Below, piece after piece: positions 12,314 through 34,683 of a DNA stretch of 55,598 nt; the stretch's first letter is position 1, and each line of letters opens with the position of its first letter. The position numbers were made by a program, and so were the translations under genes. The notes beneath the pieces were generated by a model. The model ran no database searches, was not told the DNA's origin, and saw only the letters and a list, made by a program, of their open reading frames with translations. The DNA lies in IMG/VR virus record IMGVR_UViG_3300006802_000117, positions 1 through 55,598 of that record, one strand, 5' to 3'. The stretch is from a virus.

Positions 12314-12904
12314 ATGAAACCAAGTGAAAAACCCCATTACGTTAACAACGCAGAATTTTCTGCAGCAGTCGTAAAGTACGTAAGTTCTGCTAACCAAGCG
12401 AAAGAGAATAATGAACCTAAGCCAATCATTCCTGACTATGTGGCAAGATGTTTCCTTAAAATTGCTGAAGGGTTGTCACACAAAGCAAACTTTGTTCGTT
12501 ATACCTATCGCGAAGAAATGGTTATGGATGCAGTAGAGAACTGCCTCAAAGCAATTGAGAATTATAATCTGGAAACTGCAACCAGGACAGGTAAACCAAA
12601 TGCTTTCGCATATTTTACCCAGATTGCTTGGTATGCATTTTTACGAAGAATTCAAAAAGAAAAGAAACAGCAAGATATCAAATTAAAGTATCTCGCTGAG
12701 TCGGGTTTAGAGCTTCTTGTTTCTGAGGAGATAGATAATGATGAAGCATCAAGACAAACCCAAGCATTTGTTGATGAATTAAGACAAAGAATCGATGTTG
12801 TCAAAGAACACGATAACCAATTTACTCAATATGTCAAAGAAGAAAAAACTAGAAGAAGAACGAGACACGCGGACTCTGACTTAACCGAATTCTTGGTGAA
12901 TTAA
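12314..12904 (+). CDS. 55: Late-transcription sigma factor gp55
   Basis: The 196-residue protein (T4 gp55 is 185) is a minimal sigma70-family factor that directs host RNA polymerase to late promoters. A region-2-like core is visible: EMVMDAVENCLKAIENYN and NAFAYFTQIAWYAFLRRIQKEK (about residues 60-120). In T4 the extreme C-terminus binds the gp45 clamp, which activates late promoters. Here the C-terminus is SDLTEFLVN (188-196), the same class of tail as on gp43 and the DNA-modification proteins in this window. Confidence 0.92.
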   Translation: MKPSEKPHYVNNAEFSAAVVKYVSSANQAKENNEPKPIIPDYVARCFLKIAEGLSHKANFVRYTYREEMVMDAVENCLKAIENYNLETATRTGKPNAFAYFTQIAWYAFLRRIQKEKKQQDIKLKYLAESGLELLVSEEIDNDEASRQTQAFVDELRQRIDVVKEHDNQFTQYVKEEKTRRRTRHADSDLTEFLVN

Positions 12905-15869: not shown

Positions 15870-16544
15870 ATGCAACTAAGTGAAAAGACTGTAGAGATTC
15901 TGCGCAACTTTTCTTCTATTAACCCCAACGTTGTTATTAATGAAGGCAAAGTTGTTAAGACTATCTCAGAGGCGAAAAACGTTTTGAGTACAGCGGTGCT
16001 TGATGACGAGTTTCCATCTACATTTGGAATCTATGATCTCAACGAATTCCTAAGTGTTATCTCTTTGGTTGACGACGCTCGACTAAAGTTTGAGAGCACA
16101 CATGTCTTAATTGGTGATGGTAGCGGTAGATCACGAATCAAGTATTTTTATTCTGATCTTGATATGCTGACTAAACCCTCTAAAGATATTATAATGCCAG
16201 AGGCAGAAGTGAAGTTTGAACTTGATGAAGAAGTATTACGTCGGGTTAAAAAAGCATCTTCTGTTCTCGGACATACAGAGATGTCAGTCTCTGCTTCAAA
16301 TGGTGTGATTAGTTTATCGGTAATTGACAACAACGACAAGACTTCCAACGTCTTTTCAATTGACGTCAACGGTACGGTAAACAGCGAGAATTTTAACTTC
16401 GTATTTAACATTAGTAATCTTAAGATGATTGATGGTAATTATGATGTTTCAATTTCCTCTAAATTAATTTCGCACTTTGTTAACAAAGAAACCGCTATCG
16501 AATATTGGGTAGCACTCGAAAAATCCAGTACGTACGGAGAATAA
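15870..16544 (+). CDS. 45: Sliding clamp gp45
   Basis: The 224-residue protein matches the T4 clamp (228). It forms a trimeric ring that tethers the gp43 polymerase to DNA and serves as mobile activator of late transcription through gp55 and gp33. The N-terminal MQLSEKTVEILRNFSSINPNV and the region FIYDLNEFL-like FGIYDLNEFLSVI (about 50-62) are typical. Several proteins in this window end in peptides expected to bind this ring. It is followed 2 nt later by a small gene of the same operon. Confidence 0.93.
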   Translation: MQLSEKTVEILRNFSSINPNVVINEGKVVKTISEAKNVLSTAVLDDEFPSTFGIYDLNEFLSVISLVDDARLKFESTHVLIGDGSGRSRIKYFYSDLDMLTKPSKDIIMPEAEVKFELDEEVLRRVKKASSVLGHTEMSVSASNGVISLSVIDNNDKTSNVFSIDVNGTVNSENFNFVFNISNLKMIDGNYDVSISSKLISHFVNKETAIEYWVALEKSSTYGE

Positions 16545-16824: not shown

Positions 16825-17763
16825 ATGTCTACTGACTTTCTTTGGGTCGAGAAATACCGACCCCGCAAAATAGAAGATACAATTCTTCCTGAATCCTTGA
16901 AGACTACATTCCGGAATATAGTCGACAAGGAAGAACTACCGAACATGCTTTTTACTGGTTCGGCGGGTCTTGGAAAAACAACTGTTGCTCGAGCAATCTG
17001 TGATGAACTTGGTTACGATTATATCGTGGTCAATGGATCAGAAGAAGGTAACATTGACACCTTGAGGGGTAAGATCAAGAGGTTCGCCTCTTCGATCTCC
17101 CTCACTGGTGACTTAAAGGTTGTTATCCTTGACGAAGCGGATTATCTTAATCCTCAATCAACTCAACCTGCTCTTCGTGCATTCATCGAAGAGTTTTCTC
17201 AGAACTGTCGATTTATTCTAACTTGTAACTTCAAGAACAGAATAATTGAACCGCTGCATTCTCGATGTGGTGTTTATGAATTCAATACTACTAAGAAAGA
17301 AATGCAGAGTCTCTGTGCTGATTTCTTTGTGCGATTGATTTACATTCTTGAGTCTGAACAAGTTGAATTTAACAAAGACCTAATCGCTCAGATGATTATG
17401 AAACACGCTCCTGATTGGCGTCGAATCATATCCGAGTGTCAGCGCCACAGTATTGGTGGACAACTTACCACTGAGATTCTTTCTAACTCTATCGATAAGA
17501 ACTTCGATACGCTATTTGAAATTCTTAAGACCAAAGAGTTTAAAAAGATGAGATCCTGGGTCGCTAATAACGTTGACCTAGATATGACTGTGGTTCTTCG
17601 TCATATATTTGACTCGATGTACGAGCGCGTAGAACCTGCTTCAATACCGCAATTGGTATTGATTATGGCAGACTATCAATATAAGAATGCGTTCGTTGCT
17701 GATCATGAACTTAACCTTGTTGCTTGTCTGACTGAGATTATGGCAAACGTGGAGGTTAAATGA
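16825..17763 (+). CDS. 44: Clamp loader large subunit gp44
   Basis: The 312-residue AAA+ ATPase (T4 gp44 is 319) opens and loads gp45 together with gp62. The motifs are in order: WVEKYRPRKIEDTILP (7-22), Walker A TGSAGLGKTT, Walker B VVILDEADYL, and the SRC arginine-finger motif in LHSRCGVYEF. The last codons overlap the epimerase start by 4 bp, so the loader operon is split by that gene before gp62. Confidence 0.96.
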   Translation: MSTDFLWVEKYRPRKIEDTILPESLKTTFRNIVDKEELPNMLFTGSAGLGKTTVARAICDELGYDYIVVNGSEEGNIDTLRGKIKRFASSISLTGDLKVVILDEADYLNPQSTQPALRAFIEEFSQNCRFILTCNFKNRIIEPLHSRCGVYEFNTTKKEMQSLCADFFVRLIYILESEQVEFNKDLIAQMIMKHAPDWRRIISECQRHSIGGQLTTEILSNSIDKNFDTLFEILKTKEFKKMRSWVANNVDLDMTVVLRHIFDSMYERVEPASIPQLVLIMADYQYKNAFVADHELNLVACLTEIMANVEVK

Positions 17764-20970: not shown

Positions 20971-23400
20971 ATGAAATTCTATACTAATGTATCAAAAGTC
21001 GGCAACAACATCCTCTATCGAGGATACAAAGACGGTCAACGTCATTCAGAGAAAATAAAATTTAAACCGACCCTTTTCGTTGAGTCCCCAAACGCCACTG
21101 GTGAATACAAAACCCTGTACGGCAAACCTGTTGCTCCTATGCAGTTTGACGATTTAAACGAGGCGAGGGATTTCTACGAAAGATACAAAAACGTTCAAAA
21201 CTTCGAGATACACGGAATGAGTAATTTTGTGTATCAGTATCTCGCGCACGCATACCCGAACGAAGTTAAGTTTGACCGCGACCGAATCAACGTCACCACA
21301 ATAGACATTGAGGTTGCTTCAGACGAAGGGTTCCCAGAACCAGCACAGGCAAACCACCAAGTTATCTCAATTACTTGCAAGAATAATATCGACAACGTCT
21401 ATTATGTTTGGGGATTATATCACTATGATGAAACCCTGAGCGAAAAAAATATTAATTATTTCCTTTGTGAAAACGAAGCAAACTTACTTCGTTCTTTCCT
21501 TGGTTGGTGGTCCAGCGCAGTCAATTACCCTGACGTTGTAACTGGTTGGAACACCAAGATGTTTGATATACCTTATCTCGTTAATAGAATTGAGCATGTC
21601 CTCGGAAACAATGAATACAAAAGACTCTCCCCATGGGGTTTGGTCAAAGAACGTAAGTTCCATACGCGCATGGGTCAGGAAGCATTCACCTACGAACTCG
21701 AAGGTATCTCTAGTCTCGATTATTATGATCTGTTTCAAAAGTTTGGCGTCCTAACCTACGGACAACAGGAATCATTTAAACTTGATCATATTGCCCACGT
21801 TGTCCTCGGCGAGAAGAAACTATCCTATGAAGAGTACGGTTCGCTACACTCTCTTTACCGTCATGACTTTCAAAAGTTTATTGACTACAATATCAAAGAC
21901 GTTGAACTTGTCGACCGTCTCGAAGAAAAGATGGCATTGATCACGCTCGCTATGACTATGGCGTACAAAGCGAAATGTAATTATAATGATGCATTCGGCA
22001 CGACTGGTATATGGGACTCTGTTATATACAACGAACTGATTCCACTCAAGATCATCGTTCCCCCAAAGGTTGACAAGTTCAAGTCATCAATCGTTGGTGG
22101 GTTCGTTAAAGATCCAAAGATTGGAATGCATGAATGGGTTTGTTCCTTTGATTTAAATTCTCTCTATCCCAATATCATTGTACAATATAATATGTCGCCC
22201 GAGACTATTAGTGAAGACGGTATTTGCGAGGCAGCAAACGGGACTCGATATCGTAATGATGTTGAAGGTATCATTCCCCGAGTAATTAAGAAGTTCTATG
22301 CTGACCGCGTTGAAGCGAAAGATAAAATGCTCGAGGCGAAGAGAAAATATCAAGAGGCACCGACTAAAAAACTAGAGAATGAAATCACGATCTACGATAA
22401 CCAGCAGATGGCAGTTAAGATCTTGATGAACTCTCTCTATGGTGCGCTCGCGAATAAGTATTTTCGTTACTTCGATTTACGTATTGCTGAGGCAGTTACG
22501 ACCTCTGGTCAACGAGCGATCCTCTGCGCCGAGAAGGCAGTTAATGATGAGATGCAAGAAATACTTGGCACTAAAGAAGATTATGTCCTGGCGATTGACA
22601 CTGACTCAGTTTACATTAACATGGCACCTCTTGTAACTGAACATAAACCAGCGAACCCAGTTAAGTTTCTTGATAAAGTCTGTGAACATTTTGAGAAGAA
22701 GATTGCCAAGGCATATGAGAAACAAGCAAAGGAAACAAAGGCATACGAAAACCGTATGATCATGAAGCGGGAAGCGATTGCCGACCGAGGCATCTGGACT
22801 GCTAAGAAGCGATATATACTACAGGTACACAATAACGAGGGTGTACAATATACTGAACCTAAGATGAAGGTCATGGGTATTGAGGCGATTAAATCCAGCA
22901 CGCCCCAGATCTGCCGTGATAAGTTTCAGGAAATCTTTAAGGTGTTGTTGAATGGGTCTGAGTCTGAGACCCAGAAGTTTATCCGAGAGTTCAAGAAAGA
23001 GTTTTGTTCGACTCGTCCTGAGGAGGTTGCCTTTCCAAGAACTGCTAAAGAGATATCTAAGTTTCGTGATAAGAATACGATCTATGGTAAGGGCACTCCA
23101 ATTCATGTGCGCGGGTCGCTTCTTTATAATCATTACATTAAGGAGAATAAATTACAAAACAAGTATGAATTAATTAAGAACGGTGAGAAGATCAAGTTTG
23201 TTTACCTCAGGACACCAAATTTTATCAAAGAAAATATCATCGCATTTCCGAACGAATTTCCAACTGAGTTGAAACTGCATAAATACGTGGACTATGAGAA
23301 AATGTTTGACAAAACATTCCTTGAACCGTTACGTCCTCTCCTCGACGCTATCGGGTGGCAGGACGAACCTAAAGCGTCCCTTGAAGATTTCTTTGGATAA
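20971..23400 (+). CDS. 43: DNA polymerase gp43 (family B)
   Basis: The 809-residue replicative polymerase is about 90 residues shorter than T4 gp43 (898). Exonuclease motifs are TTIDIEVAS (Exo I), [15 protein letters not shown] (Exo II) and Y-N-I-K-D-V-E-L (Exo III). Polymerase motifs are [10 protein letters not shown] (A), [20 protein letters not shown] (B) and [10 protein letters not shown] (C). The C-terminus ASLEDFFG (802-809) corresponds to the clamp-docking tail of T4/RB69 polymerase. Its stop overlaps the next promoter cassette. Confidence 0.97.
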
Positions 23401-28005: not shown

Positions 28006-28269
28006 ATGGATCCATTATATCAAACGGTCTTAACACTTTTTTGTATGTTTGGTGCATATCTTTGGGGTAGGTCCCAAGGAGTTATGTCTGGTTGTACAAT
28101 GACTTGGTTGGTTGTTATTGAGAGTTTTCGAGCGAAAGAATTGAATATTGATGAAGATACCCAAGAAATATTCTTTACGGATAATTGGGGCAGAGTCAAA
28201 AGTTCTCTAACATTTTGGAATGAAGATGGAAATCGAGATAAAGAACCAGAAGTTCTTGAGCAGACTTAA
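28006..28269 (+). CDS. Small membrane-anchored protein
   Basis: The 87-residue protein follows gp41 after a GGAGA site. Residues 4-40 are hydrophobic and contain LYQTVLTLFCMFGAYLWG and a second apolar stretch, so one or two membrane passes are likely. The rest is acidic and soluble (LNIDEDTQEIFFTDNWGRVKS). Small membrane proteins of this kind are widespread in marine T4-type phages. It overlaps the next gene by 50 bp. The function is unknown. Confidence 0.55.
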   Translation: MDPLYQTVLTLFCMFGAYLWGRSQGVMSGCTMTWLVVIESFRAKELNIDEDTQEIFFTDNWGRVKSSLTFWNEDGNRDKEPEVLEQT

Positions 28270-28876
28270 TGGTCTGATTGAAGAGTTTAATAGTATTAGA
28301 GGCGATTCTATACTACCTTCTATAAAATCTGTTGATTCTAATTTTGAATCATATCTTTCAAGAGAAAGACTTAATGAGTTAATGTCCGCTCCTCATCGCG
28401 GGGATCCAGTGGACTATCATGCCACACCCGTTGGTGATCTTAGATTAAAATATTCTGAATGGATTAATTTTTATAATGAATGGCGATTTGAAGTTCCTTC
28501 AGAAATGGGTATGGCAACTTGTGCGTTGATCAATCATTATCCTGAACAAGGATTGACGGGTTGGCATACTAATTGGAATGCCAATGCATATCAAATCCTT
28601 TTCACTTGGTCAGAAACAGGCGATGGGTACTTTTGTTACTTAGATAAAGAAAAAGATGAAATAATTAAAATTCAGGACAAACCTGGATGGCAATGTAGGT
28701 GGTTCTATTTCGGTAGAGAAGACGAACCTGAACATCATTGTTGGCATGGTTGTTATACGAATTGTGAAAGATTTACACTAGCATATAAATTTTCAAATCA
28801 AAGTAAAAACTCAAAAGTAGATTTAATTGCTCAGGAGATGAGAGATGAATTTATCGCAGAGATCACAACAGTTTAA
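28220..28876 (+). CDS. Putative 2-oxoglutarate/Fe(II) oxygenase-like phage protein
   Basis: The 218-residue protein has a late pattern compatible with the double-stranded beta-helix oxygenases: GWHTNWN (H116, N118 in place of the usual H-x-D), ILFTWSETGDGYF, then EHHCWHG (H172/H173/H176) and ERFTLAYKF (R184). If real, the second metal ligand is Asn rather than Asp, which often marks altered chemistry. The start could equally be 28226. It precedes the wall hydrolase and the TET gene by one and three genes. Confidence 0.5.
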   Translation: MKMEIEIKNQKFLSRLNGLIEEFNSIRGDSILPSIKSVDSNFESYLSRERLNELMSAPHRGDPVDYHATPVGDLRLKYSEWINFYNEWRFEVPSEMGMATCALINHYPEQGLTGWHTNWNANAYQILFTWSETGDGYFCYLDKEKDEIIKIQDKPGWQCRWFYFGREDEPEHHCWHGCYTNCERFTLAYKFSNQSKNSKVDLIAQEMRDEFIAEITTV

Positions 28877-29588: not shown

Positions 29589-29914
29589 AACAAAACTTAT
29601 TCACTGAAGGTGTACAATATCGAAAGTTGTTGCCTGAACTTTCTTTAATGACTGTCTATGGTAAAAAAGATGTCGTTATGAAGCGATGTAAATGTTGCGG
29701 CGTGGTAAAATGTGGAAGCGAGTTTTATTTAAAACCAAATTCAAAAACCGAATTAAGAGATTTTTGCACCTCCTGTCACTCCAAAGATACACAAGAAAGA
29801 AGTAAAAGACTTAGATATAAAACCGCAAAGTATAAAGAAATGGTGCGGCGCAGAAAAGAAGAAGAAAAACGAAAGCGAGAAAATGCAGGATCTCTAGAGG
29901 AATTCATGGTATGA
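29585..29914 (+). CDS. Small zinc-ribbon protein with clamp-binding-like tail
   Basis: The 109-residue protein has two Cys pairs, CKCCG (about 35-39) and CTSCH (about 60-64), spaced as a zinc ribbon, with EFYLKPNSK between. This pattern is common in phage endonuclease VII/HNH-associated proteins, but no His-Asn-His core follows. The rest is a very basic helix and then GSLEEFMV (102-109). Its stop overlaps the TET gene by 4 bp. A DNA-binding partner of the modification enzymes is an inference from the tail and the coupling. Confidence 0.6.
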   Translation: MKQNLFTEGVQYRKLLPELSLMTVYGKKDVVMKRCKCCGVVKCGSEFYLKPNSKTELRDFCTSCHSKDTQERSKRLRYKTAKYKEMVRRRKEEEKRKRENAGSLEEFMV

Positions 29915-31242
29915 GAGTTGTCATTGCTGACAAAGTAATTAATTGCGAACACAAACTCGGTACATATATGGAAGATACCGATTACGATCTCTTGGTTGAA
30001 GAGGATATTGACTTCTATGCGCCGATTAAAGAAATTGGTAGAACAGAACCATCAGAGCAAGAGTGTATATTCAAGTTTCGAAAATCTGTGTTTAGCGCCG
30101 AAGAACAACTTGGCGCGTACGAAGGTTTGGTTGGCGCTGCTCAACCAACTCAGAACCGAGGTCTTGCTGCAGGTCCAAAGGGCGAGCGCCTCGGTAGTAG
30201 AAATTGGTGTACTGAAGAGCAAATAGAAATTATGGAACATCTTATGAAAGGCGGAACTTCGCTTTTCTCTGACGACCCAATTGCTGAGATACGCGAAAAA
30301 CATAGAAAAATGAAAGTGCAGCCAGAGAGTCGTGGTATTGTTTGGGTTATAACTAAGATTGAAGCGGATGGGTATGAATATGATAATTTCTTTGAAAATA
30401 AAATTCAGGAAATATTAAAACTTCCTTACGCCGATCGCCGCACAGCTGCTAAACATATGTTCGATACTTACGTATCAAAAACAACTTACGCAAATCAAGT
30501 TTTATCTGGTATTGCTGGATTCTACGATCGATATCCTCGTATTCCTTACGGTCGGGCAACTTCTTATACTGAACATAACTTTTCAACTTATGAAAAATGT
30601 TATCCATTCATGAGAAAACTATCAAATGAATTTGCCCGACTACTACCTCAGAAGTTTTCTAAACAAGAACATTATGCCAATAAACTTGATGAGCGTTTTC
30701 GAGTTGCCGGTAAAGATACACCATTTACAACAATTACAGTAAATAAAAATTTTAGAACTTCAGCGCATCGCGACGCAGGCGACTTGAGCGAAGGGTTTTC
30801 TAATTTAACAGTTGTCGCTAAAGAAAAGGATTGGGATGGTGGTTATCTTGTGTTGCCCGAATATAGAGTAGCAATCAATGTAAGACCAGGGGATTTATTG
30901 TTAATTAATAATCATGAAGGTATACATGGCAATACACAAATCATACCGAAAGAAGGAAAAACTTTGGATGAGATGGAACGTATTTCCCTAGTTTGCTATT
31001 TCCGTGAAAAAATGCTAGAATTGGGTACAATGGAATATGAAAACCATCGTTACAATTTTGTTATCAGTAGAAAAAATAATGAATCACATCCAAATTGGCG
31101 CCCACTTTGGAACGGTGTTAGTGAAGGAATGTGGGAATCAGATGAATGGTTTGATTATCTTGAAACCAACGGCGGTTCTGATATGTTAAATACATATCAT
31201 CCTAATAATGAAAAGTCATCCCTTGAGGCATTTTTTGCATGA
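29911..31242 (+). CDS. TET/JBP-family 2-oxoglutarate/Fe(II) dioxygenase
   Basis: The 443-residue protein oxidises the 5-methyl group of a pyrimidine base in DNA (family knowledge). The signature is complete: SAHRDAGD with H286-x-D288, GGYLVLPEYRVAINVRPGDLL, HEGIHGNT with H339, and ERISLVCYFREKM with R357 for 2-oxoglutarate. The N-terminal 250 residues are lineage-specific. The C-terminus is SSLEAFFA (436-443), like the polymerase clamp tail. It overlaps the glycosyltransferase by 4 bp. No C5-cytosine methylase is seen nearby, so thymine or a methylase outside the window must supply the substrate. Confidence 0.88.
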   Translation: MRVVIADKVINCEHKLGTYMEDTDYDLLVEEDIDFYAPIKEIGRTEPSEQECIFKFRKSVFSAEEQLGAYEGLVGAAQPTQNRGLAAGPKGERLGSRNWCTEEQIEIMEHLMKGGTSLFSDDPIAEIREKHRKMKVQPESRGIVWVITKIEADGYEYDNFFENKIQEILKLPYADRRTAAKHMFDTYVSKTTYANQVLSGIAGFYDRYPRIPYGRATSYTEHNFSTYEKCYPFMRKLSNEFARLLPQKFSKQEHYANKLDERFRVAGKDTPFTTITVNKNFRTSAHRDAGDLSEGFSNLTVVAKEKDWDGGYLVLPEYRVAINVRPGDLLLINNHEGIHGNTQIIPKEGKTLDEMERISLVCYFREKMLELGTMEYENHRYNFVISRKNNESHPNWRPLWNGVSEGMWESDEWFDYLETNGGSDMLNTYHPNNEKSSLEAFFA

Positions 31243-32045
31243 TTGATTACCAGATAGCAGTCCCCAGTTACAAACGACCAGTAACTATTCAAAACAAAAC
31301 ACTCAAAGTATTTGAACATCATAACATACCATCCGAAAGAGTTACTATTTTCGTTGCAGACGAAATAGAACATGAAGCATATAAGGTTGCTCTAAATAAT
31401 CACAAATATGGTTCAAACATCGTCATAGGCGTCCCCACAATTGGTGCACAGCGTAATTTTATTGAGAAGTATTATCCCGAAGGCACATTATTAATGATGT
31501 TTGATGATGACATTGAAGAAGTCCAAAGAAGGCAAGACGAAAAAACTCTTGTACCTATTGACGATTTGTATTCTGAAATCATCGAACAAGGATTTAATAA
31601 GTGTGCTGAAGTTGGTGCTAAGACCTTCGGTATATATGCAGCATCAAACGCATATTTCATGAAAGATCGAGTTTATACGAAACTTTGTTATATTATTGCT
31701 TCTATGTTTGGCGTCGTCGTTGAGCATGATGATTATCTCGCGCGCGAAACAAATCACGGCGAAGATTATGAATATAGTTTGCGCCAATATGTTAAGAATG
31801 GTGTTCTCTGCCGACTTGATAACTATACTGTTAAAAGCAACTACTATAAAGAAGAAGGTGGATTACAAACCATTAGAACTAAAGATTATGTACACGAATC
31901 AATTAGCAAGATTGCTAATATGTTTCCTGACCTTTGTACGATGTACACGCGTAAATCTACTGGTAACGCTGAACTAAGATTACGAGATAGCACTAATGGT
32001 AAATATCAAAAAGCAGAATCAACCCTTGAGGCATTTTTCGTATGA
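31239..32045 (+). CDS. TET-associated glycosyltransferase (TAGT-like)
   Basis: The 268-residue GT-A-fold enzyme begins DYQIAVPSYKRPVTIQNKTL and has the metal motif MMFDDDIEEV (DDD at 89-91) and an ETNHGEDYEYSLR segment. Glycosyltransferases of this type accompany phage TET/JBP enzymes and are proposed to glycosylate the oxidised base. The last residues STLEAFFV (261-268) mirror those of the TET protein. Both ends overlap neighbours by 4 bp, so expression is coupled. The sugar donor is unknown. Confidence 0.82.
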   Translation: MIDYQIAVPSYKRPVTIQNKTLKVFEHHNIPSERVTIFVADEIEHEAYKVALNNHKYGSNIVIGVPTIGAQRNFIEKYYPEGTLLMMFDDDIEEVQRRQDEKTLVPIDDLYSEIIEQGFNKCAEVGAKTFGIYAASNAYFMKDRVYTKLCYIIASMFGVVVEHDDYLARETNHGEDYEYSLRQYVKNGVLCRLDNYTVKSNYYKEEGGLQTIRTKDYVHESISKIANMFPDLCTMYTRKSTGNAELRLRDSTNGKYQKAESTLEAFFV

Positions 32046-32455
32046 TCGTAGGATTTACTGCAAGCACATTTGACTTGCTTCACGCTGGTCATATTTCTAT
32101 GCTGCGCGAAGCAAAAGAGCAATGCGAATACTTAATTTGTGGTTTGCAAGTTGATCCTTCGTTAGATCGCCCAGAAAAAAATAAACCTGTACAAACTTTG
32201 GTTGAACGTTATATCCAGCTGTCTGCTGTTAAATACGTTGATGAAATTATACCGTATCAATCTGAAGAAGATTTAGAAGATATACTCAAAATGGTTAGTA
32301 TCGACATACGTATTATTGGTGCTGAGTATAAGGATAAAAAATTTACTGGTCGCGCTACTTGTGCTTCTCGTGGAATTGAAATATTCTATAACAAGAGAGA
32401 CCATAGATTTTCAACCAGCGATTTAAGGAGAAGAGTTAGTGAACTACAAATTTAA
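32042..32455 (+). CDS. Cytidylyltransferase-like nucleotidyltransferase
   Basis: The 137-residue enzyme has the HxGH signature (FDLLHAGHISML, residues 10-21), RPEKNKPVQTLVERYIQLSAVKYVDEI and the RFSTSDLRRRV (I-S-S-T-x-x-R-like) motif. Relatives (TagD, RfaE C-domain) couple CTP or ATP to glycerol-3-phosphate, ethanolamine phosphate or a sugar phosphate. It overlaps the glycosyltransferase by 4 bp, so making the donor for DNA modification is an attractive inference. Nucleotide specificity cannot be read from the sequence. Confidence 0.85.
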   Translation: MIVGFTASTFDLLHAGHISMLREAKEQCEYLICGLQVDPSLDRPEKNKPVQTLVERYIQLSAVKYVDEIIPYQSEEDLEDILKMVSIDIRIIGAEYKDKKFTGRATCASRGIEIFYNKRDHRFSTSDLRRRVSELQI

Positions 32456-33846: not shown

Positions 33847-34683
33847 ATGAAACAATTAAAGACGCCCTTGAGATATCCTGGTGGTAAATCAAGGGCAACC
33901 AAGTTTTTATTTTCTAAACTTCCTGAAAAAATTCGTGCTTACCGTGAACCATTCTTAGGTGGTGGGTCAGTAGCGATTGAGTTCACTAAACGATTTCCAG
34001 ATTGCCCCGTTTGGGTTAATGATAAGTATGCTAATCTTTATCATTTCTGGTCTCAACTTCAGAAAAACGGTGAGGCGCTATATAGTGCTATCTTAAACTA
34101 CAAGTTGAAGGCAGAATCGTATGAAGACGTGGATGCAGCACATCGAGAACTTTTTCTCAAAAGTCGAGAGGAAATCAGTGGACCTCTTGATCCTTTTGGG
34201 ATTGCTGTTCGCTTTTTCATTATCAATAAGTGCAGTTTTTCTGGTCTTGGGGAATCTAGTGGATTTTCCGCAGCAGCAAGTAAACAAAACTTTTCCAAAA
34301 ACAATATATCGCGATTACCAAAATATTCAGAACTGATTCAGAATTGGTTGATCACTAATAATGATTACACAAAAATCTTAGAAGGTTGTGAACAAGACGA
34401 GTTTGTTTTCTGTGATCCACCATATGATATTAAATCAGCATTATATGGTAAGAATGGTAAGTATCATTTGTTTTTTGATCATTATGAGTTTTCTGTTGAC
34501 GCAACAAAATGCGCAGGTAATGTAATGATAACGTATAATTCAAATGAAGTACTTCGCGAAATTTATGAGGACTGGAATCAAATAGAATGGGACTTGACTT
34601 ACACTATGCATTCAGGTAAGATGTATCGTGAAGATGAGTCAAACAGAAAGGAATTGCTAATAACAAATTATGAAACTAAATGA
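33847..34683 (+). CDS. dam: Dam-type DNA N6-adenine methyltransferase
   Basis: The 278-residue D12-class methylase has the order expected of Dam: PLRYPGGKSR (7-16), the SAM-binding REPFLGGGSVAIEF (33-46), CSFSGLGESSGF, and the catalytic DPPYD (190-194). T4 Dam (259 residues) and E. coli Dam modify GATC. The phage would thereby protect its DNA from GATC-cutting enzymes, or mark packaging or replication. It follows the modification cassette and overlaps the next small gene. Confidence 0.92.
   Translation: MKQLKTPLRYPGGKSRATKFLFSKLPEKIRAYREPFLGGGSVAIEFTKRFPDCPVWVNDKYANLYHFWSQLQKNGEALYSAILNYKLKAESYEDVDAAHRELFLKSREEISGPLDPFGIAVRFFIINKCSFSGLGESSGFSAAASKQNFSKNNISRLPKYSELIQNWLITNNDYTKILEGCEQDEFVFCDPPYDIKSALYGKNGKYHLFFDHYEFSVDATKCAGNVMITYNSNEVLREIYEDWNQIEWDLTYTMHSGKMYREDESNRKELLITNYETK

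Follow-up and report, generated by a model that had tools for sequence, protein, structure and literature searches.

A putative sliding-clamp tail shared by the DNA polymerase and the base-modifying enzymes of T4-type phages

The 55,598 nucleotide virus record IMGVR_UViG_3300006802_000117 (the window) encodes a TET/JBP dioxygenase and a TET-associated glycosyltransferase (TAGT) side by side. Both proteins end in a short peptide of the type found at the end of the DNA polymerase, gp43, of the same phage. We conclude, with a probability of roughly 86%, that TET/JBP and TAGT, and perhaps a small zinc-ribbon protein, dock on the sliding clamp gp45 by this gp43-type tail and modify the phage DNA there. 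The modification machinery would therefore probably ride on the replication clamp. The sequences show that the tails are present, that selection at the protein level acts on them, that they go with gp45, and that in several lineages they change together with the tail of the polymerase. Across the T4-type and Ackermannviridae phages, the amino acid:DNA transferases (ADDT), the 5-hmdU DNA kinases, Mom, and a Dam methylase appear to share this arrangement.

Tails in the window genome

The window corresponds to bases 99,534–155,131 of a 155,131 bp parent genome (G001, IMGVR_UViG_3300025889_000075) that carries T4-type replication and structural genes. A position matrix was built from 21 distinct gp43 tails only, the window's own gp43 included, and was used to score the ends of all 838 open reading frames (ORFs) of at least 40 aa in the parent genome. 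The four highest scores belong to gp43, TAGT, TET/JBP, and the zinc protein, in that order (Table 1). Shuffled tails give a background of 0.3 ORFs at 10 bits or more and 0.015 ORFs at 14 bits or more. The ranks against this background rule out a chance origin of the tails, and scores below about 10 bits need other evidence. A baseplate hub protein ending G[IL]xDFF (G-x-x-D-F-F) scores 5–9 bits in several genomes and was taken as a false positive. The late sigma factor gp55 is lower by the gp43 matrix, at 5.4 bits and rank 8, and its DSDL[TS]EF[LM] end is found again in relatives.

The first-pass annotation of the window had placed such tails on five proteins, gp55 and the four just ranked. All five were located exactly there, at the extreme C-terminus. 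The end of a primase-like protein, SALEYVYRN, had been listed as a weaker match and has been dropped, as it does not fit the matrix and is a conserved C-terminus of its family (AIEFIYRN and similar).

TET/JBP and TAGT

The window TET/JBP is a PF12851 dioxygenase, predicted to oxidise a DNA pyrimidine. Foldseek matches of its model to CcTet, NgTet1, and TET2 point to a TET-like fold. The AlphaFold2 model is moderate (pLDDT 73); residues 434–443 have a pLDDT below 50, with a short helix at 438–442 on the L-E-x-F-F. The TAGT model has a mean pLDDT of 85 and a GT-A fold, with a low-pLDDT helix at 263–267 after a loop. Its Foldseek matches are TarS, TarP, and RmlT, wall-teichoic-acid and related GT-A enzymes, and the DDD motif (D89–D91) is invariant in the alignment. 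Database rows were left out of the alignment used for structure prediction.

Across 24 TET homologues L438 is invariant, E439 is conserved in 92%, and F442 in 96%, while across 14 TAGT homologues L263, F266, and F267 are invariant. The linkers ahead of the tails are variable and gapped, and the tail residues are better conserved than the linker. The tails sit on variable linkers that are probably disordered. At 10 bits or more, the tail is present in 60 of 65 TETs (non-redundant at 90%). The remainder are the variants SLAGFL (L171) and LEDMFGE (L056), the L010 clade, which has lost the tail, Cr30 (ATLF), and S-CBWM1 (none). Of 40 TAGTs at the same redundancy, 27 reach 10 bits, about 6 more have a recognisable variant (about 33 out of 40), and 7 are tailless. 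The tail codons include all six for Leu, both for Glu, and both TCN and AGY for Ser. This free choice of codons indicates that selection acts on the residues.

In the tailless clade (L010–L013 and L050) the gene following TET is an epimerase-like ORF, not a glycosyltransferase (GT), and the clade can be seen as a natural tail-loss experiment. The TET genes of DLP6 (L063, 11995–13341) and Cr30 (L065, 11998–13326) are annotated as 'SNF2 DNA repair protein', which looks like a misannotation.

Association of the tail with gp45

The tail was not found in seven complete TET/TAGT genomes that have no detectable gp45: S-CBWM1, Acadian, Rich, Altadena, Lilmac1015, HTVC112P, and P12024L. The gp45-positive phages DLP6, C48C1, and Melnitz are tailed; Cr30 is tailed on its GT, in a divergent form, and its TET is an exception. 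The association of tail and gp45 gives a Fisher P of 0.003, or 0.02 with Cr30 counted against, the genomes not being independent samples. Among 50 TAGT contigs, which are fragments in which absence of gp45 is weak evidence, TAGT is tailed in all 29 where gp45 is seen, and all 7 tailless cases lie where it is not. The larger tailless-TAGT contigs have terminase and tape-measure genes of siphovirus type. In these sequences, then, the tail goes with gp45, being conserved in its presence and missing in its absence, with the exception of the L010 clade and the Cr30 TET. Conservation among TET and TAGT homologues was one of the points on which the first-pass annotation had staked its clamp reading, and the gp45-bearing phages have it.

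Covariation with the polymerase tail

In several phages the tail has a different sequence, here called a dialect, and the polymerase and the modification enzymes share it. In the Vibrio phage K485 a basic K/R-L-W/F type is found throughout: gp43 ends KARKLW, gp33 KTRKLF, ADDT KTRKLW, the 5-hmdU kinase HMUD2 KTKKLW, the HMUDK homologue STKRLW, and a small zinc protein KTKKLW. A strict [RK]KL[WF] ending is present in 0 of 2263 genes of ten other phages. The Vi01 tails are VNLLSMMGKKG (gp43), VNLMSLLKR (ADDT), VSLLGLMRKA (HMUD2), and VNLLDRLKKPE (HMUDK), and those of Cygsa01 are ASVMDFFS (gp43), NDLMGFFQ (ADDT), KNVFDLF (HMUD2), KSVLDLF (HMUDK), and NSLLDFF (zinc protein). Likewise, among the T4-like relatives, Cr30 has ADLSSLFD on gp43 and SDLSKLF on its GT, and L171 has SDLSAFLV on gp43, SSLADFLV on the GT, and GSLAGFL on TET.

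K485, Vi01, Cygsa01, and phiEa2809 all encode gp45 (4 out of 4). When the tails are permuted exhaustively among the four, 5 of 13,824 arrangements agree as well as the observed one. For 25 genomes the agreement was reached in 0 of 20,000 permutations, and in 29 of 20,000 without the Ackermann-type phages, in statistics that ignore relatedness among genomes. The co-switching of the polymerase and modification-enzyme tails is the strongest line of evidence here and speaks for one shared docking partner.

In several relatives (G060, G061, and G066; L265–L267 and L275–L278) gp43 is split into two ORFs of about 485 and about 375 aa, with the C-terminal piece tailed. The gp55 proteins of L027, L030, L031, L033, L035, L036, and L040–L049 have a basic KRRKVKKR-type end and no clamp tail, unlike the window gp55.

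Other tailed proteins in related phages

The same matrix was scanned over eight related genomes and T4. This recovered gp43, TET, and TAGT again, and most of the yield consisted of known clamp clients and of enzymes that modify DNA. A D12 Dam methylase in C48C1 ends STLDAFFG, a Mom-family protein in Melnitz ends TATLEGFF, and gp33 of DLP6 ends ATLEAFQET. Mom of Mu and Mom of phage ABTNL-9, both phages without gp45, have no tail. A GNAT-family protein near TET in G061 (L308, 58288–58941) ends NTLEGFF and is possibly a DNA-base acyltransferase. The same genome encodes a 208 aa protein with no Pfam or PHROG match (L306, 832–1458) that has a strong tail, NLEDFFGE, and is a candidate new clamp client. 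The ADDT upstream of TET in G058 ends GLEEFMV, with a lower score; across about 20 loci the ADDT tails keep the pattern L-E-x-[FLI]-[MFLW].

The zinc protein

Only two relatives of the zinc protein were found (L008 and L009), making three known members, and a wider scan for it returned its own locus only. Its tail is the least secure, because near-identical DNA is found in relatives at the end of the ADDT just upstream of TET. It is possible that the tail is a transferred ribosome-binding junction, and the sequences argue only weakly for the zinc protein as a clamp client. The clamp reading of the first-pass annotation is therefore supported for TET and TAGT, through conservation and co-switching with the polymerase, weakly for the zinc protein, and not for the primase-like protein.

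Small cysteine-rich proteins with the local clamp-like tail are found in K485 (56708–57007), Cygsa01 (109399–109710), and phiEa2809 (30517–30765). These Ackermann-type proteins recall the window zinc protein, with no detectable homology to it.

Proposed mechanism and alternative explanations

The proposed tail consensus is [S/T/A]-[S/T]-L-E-x-F-F on a short flexible linker. Such tails would seat on the hydrophobic patch of the gp45 ring, like those of T4 gp43, gp55, and gp33, and TET and TAGT would thereby be concentrated on phage DNA that carries clamps. The linker would give reach to nearby DNA, and there would be three sites per gp45 trimer. TET would oxidise the base and TAGT would then glycosylate the oxidised base; we infer these substrates and products, as we do the docking on gp45 and the action close behind the fork. 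New phage DNA would be modified soon after synthesis, ahead of the host restriction enzymes, and unreplicated host DNA would be spared. The C-termini of T4 gp43, gp55, and gp33 closely resemble one another, are the epitopes that bind gp45, and can be exchanged (PMC2988020). Given a shared tail that switches together with that of the polymerase, docking on gp45 is therefore the simplest meaning.

Several observations weigh against this interpretation. The TET clade of L010–L013 and L050 has lost the tail and ends KKKVSLWS, yet its gp43 keeps one, so the tail is dispensable there. The Dam methylases of cyanophages and of the window itself (33847–34683) are without a tail, although the C48C1 homologue has one. 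Tethering is thus common and not obligatory, if the tails act as proposed. As a positive control gp33 is mixed: it is tailed in DLP6 and K485, but in the window genome, C48C1, and Melnitz it ends NTLPV or similar and lacks the complete motif. In phiEa2809 the ADDT (NNLLSLFGR) and HMUDK (RNLTSLFSRK) tails are alike, and gp43, with VNLMAMLKKQQDKG, fits both less well. The covariation is not significant (2765 of 20,000 permutations) for the 20 near-consensus genomes, whose tails vary little. The signal is carried by the divergent lineages, and the permutations take no account of how these are related. Also, a 2026 paper on T4 alpha-glucosyltransferase (AGT) concludes that the alpha/beta ratio is not determined by its clamp binding (PMC13216743).

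The tail codons could instead be kept as nucleotides, with a GAGGA-like Leu-Glu-x serving as the Shine-Dalgarno of an overlapping next gene and the peptide being a by-product. Many TET tails do overlap the next start codon (gap of -4 or -1), with a Shine-Dalgarno-like core in 45 of 60, and the DNA shared by the zinc protein and ADDT tails lies just ahead of the TET start. However, the TAGT and gp43 tails persist with the next gene up to about 400 nt away, and only 8 of 27 and 13 of 34, respectively, have such a core. Synonymous codons vary freely within the tails, the two Phe are outside any Shine-Dalgarno, the gp45-negative loci L068–L071 have the same ATGA overlap without a tail, and in K485 the motif is replaced by RKLW. 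Codon variation and distance to the next gene largely refute this origin for TET and TAGT, the zinc protein excepted, and overall it is very improbable. A hydrophobic C-terminal degron, or a general stability tag recognised by a protease of the host, has the least to recommend it. Short hydrophobic ends are able to act as C-degrons, but this one is common to the polymerase, which must persist, is limited to DNA-acting proteins and gp45-bearing phages, and has L and FF positions with an acidic spacing that fit clamp motifs.

It is also hard to see the tails docking the enzymes on some other shared partner, such as the host RNA polymerase, a phage hub, or a host chaperone, and we regard this as most unlikely. 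Such a partner would fit the contacts that gp55 and gp33 also make with RNA polymerase, and docking on gp45 is here a deduction from protein ends. Against it stand the exchangeable T4 epitopes, the solved structure of the RB69 gp43 peptide on gp45 (1b8h), the tracking of gp45 by the tail, and the matching dialect of the polymerase. A different question is whether docking on gp45, if real, is coupled to the fork. Recruitment may take place at any time through clamps left on phage DNA. This would refine docking on gp45 and is compatible with it, and we give it a little less than an even chance. During T4 late transcription gp45 is a mobile tether that works away from the fork (PMC2988020), and the conclusion cited above for AGT would agree with this. 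Nothing decisive speaks against it, as sequence cannot separate fork-coupled from post-fork recruitment.

If docking on gp45 is correct, the tail, as a match to the genome's own gp43 tail, would be a cheap sequence key to DNA-modifying enzymes not yet discovered. A clamp tether on unrelated modifying enzymes would be a simple account of how phages complete post-replicative base modification on their own DNA before restriction cuts. The client list of gp45 would be extended from polymerase, ligase, and late transcription to the chemical-disguise pathway. Vi01, K485, and Cr30 are sequenced isolate phages to which this account would apply, and the Vi01 DNA modification, 5-NeOmdU, is known (PMC11721090). 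On a broader scale, it is somewhat probable that in T4-like and Ackermannviridae phages, which have a T4-type clamp, most of the base-modification pathway is tethered to gp45, with each enzyme having acquired its polymerase-type tail independently and the dialect evolving with the clamp. The enzymes concerned would be TET/JBP, TAGT, ADDT, the 5-hmdU DNA kinases, Mom-like and GNAT proteins, and some Dam methylases. On this broader reading the clamp would be a hypermodification toolbelt that limits modification to the phage's own replicating DNA.

Gene neighbourhood

The features of the window are listed in Table 1. The cytidylyltransferase-like protein that follows TAGT is a probable supplier of sugar nucleotide for the GT. 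It has no clamp tail at its C-terminus, as would be expected of an enzyme whose probable product, a sugar nucleotide, is soluble. A protein of 218 aa encoded two genes upstream of the cluster for modification (28220–28876) is 2-oxoglutarate-dioxygenase-like by eye and has no Pfam or PHROG match.

Table 1. Replication, transcription, and DNA-modification features of the window, with their C-terminal tails
Feature	Position	Strand	Evidence
gp55 late sigma factor	12314..12904	+	phrog_234 E 8e-52
gp55 tail SDLTEFLVN	12875..12901	+	DSDL[TS]EF[LM] end; T4 gp55 C-terminal clamp-binding epitope in PMC2988020
gp45 sliding clamp, proposed docking partner	15870..16544	+	PF09116, phrog_223
gp44 clamp loader large subunit	16825..17763	+	homologues adjoin gp45 in relatives; DLP6 annotation 'sliding clamp loader subunit'
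gp43 DNA polymerase	20971..23400	+	31% identity to T4 gp43
gp43 putative clamp-binding tail ASLEDFFG	23374..23397	+	matrix 22.6 bits
Small zinc-ribbon protein, 109 aa	29585..29914	+	PHROG 2255/1035 E ~1e-7; distantly like HNH/endonuclease VII zinc segments
Zinc protein tail GSLEEFMV	29888..29911	+	matrix 11.0 bits; overlaps TET start codon and GAGGA Shine-Dalgarno-like stretch
TET/JBP 2-oxoglutarate/Fe(II) DNA dioxygenase, 443 aa	29911..31242	+	Pfam PF12851 E 1.7e-23; Foldseek
TET/JBP tail SSLEAFFA	31216..31239	+	matrix 19.5 bits
TET-associated glycosyltransferase (TAGT), GT-A fold, 268 aa	31239..32045	+	Pfam PF20691 E 5.2e-16; AlphaFold2/Foldseek
TAGT tail STLEAFFV	32019..32042	+	matrix 20.2 bits
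Cytidylyltransferase-like protein	32042..32455	+	PF01467 E 1.7e-15; ends RRVSELQI

Comparison with known systems

The homology of the window gp45 to the RB69 clamp (1b77 and 1b8h) and the T4 clamp (1czd and 6drt) extends along its length. About 2300 phage genomes were found to carry gp45. Of these entries, 1b8h is the RB69 clamp in complex with the gp43 peptide and 6drt is a T4 clamp entry (PMC2988020, PMC7892883, and general knowledge). Like the motif of T4 and RB69 gp43 and of T4 gp55 and gp33, the tails described here are hydrophobic and acidic peptides at the extreme C-terminus, with a variable linker, the same consensus, and a gp45 homologue in the genome. Unlike those, they are carried by DNA-base-modifying enzymes and not by a polymerase or transcription factors.

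T4 DNA ligase, for which a solved complex with gp45 is cited in PMC7892883 (6drt), is likewise a DNA enzyme docked on the gp45 patch, as proposed for TET and TAGT. It differs in not being a modification enzyme, and its last 16 residues have no motif of the present type. Actinobacterial phages Acadian and Altadena have homologous TET and TAGT genes side by side, as in the window, but have neither gp45 nor the tail. Eukaryotic PIP-box proteins, such as DNMT1 on PCNA, are cases of a DNA-modifying enzyme held on a sliding clamp through a short L-x-x-aromatic-aromatic peptide. The phage tails differ in having no conserved Gln, in being at the extreme C-terminus, and in being on unrelated enzymes with phage gp45 as the proposed partner. 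DNMT1 is listed as a PCNA client in PMC5264654.

A precedent is AGT, a phage DNA glycosyltransferase that was likewise proposed to act at the replication clamp. AGT binds gp45 and, it was suggested, modifies the DNA as it is replicated (Sommer et al. 2004, as cited in PMC13216743). The interaction was confirmed by pull-down and co-purification, and AGT binds even with a C-terminal His tag (PMC13216743). The C-terminus of AGT (FDIITK) has no tail of the present type, and TAGT and TET, which are unrelated to AGT, carry the polymerase-type C-terminal peptide. The open-access papers on clamps and hypermodification that were searched describe no TET/JBP, TAGT, ADDT, or 5-hmdU kinase as a clamp client, which does not prove absence. 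This agrees with the first-pass annotation, which knew of no clamp-tethered TET/JBP, with the qualification that a clamp-binding DNA glucosyltransferase was already known in T4.

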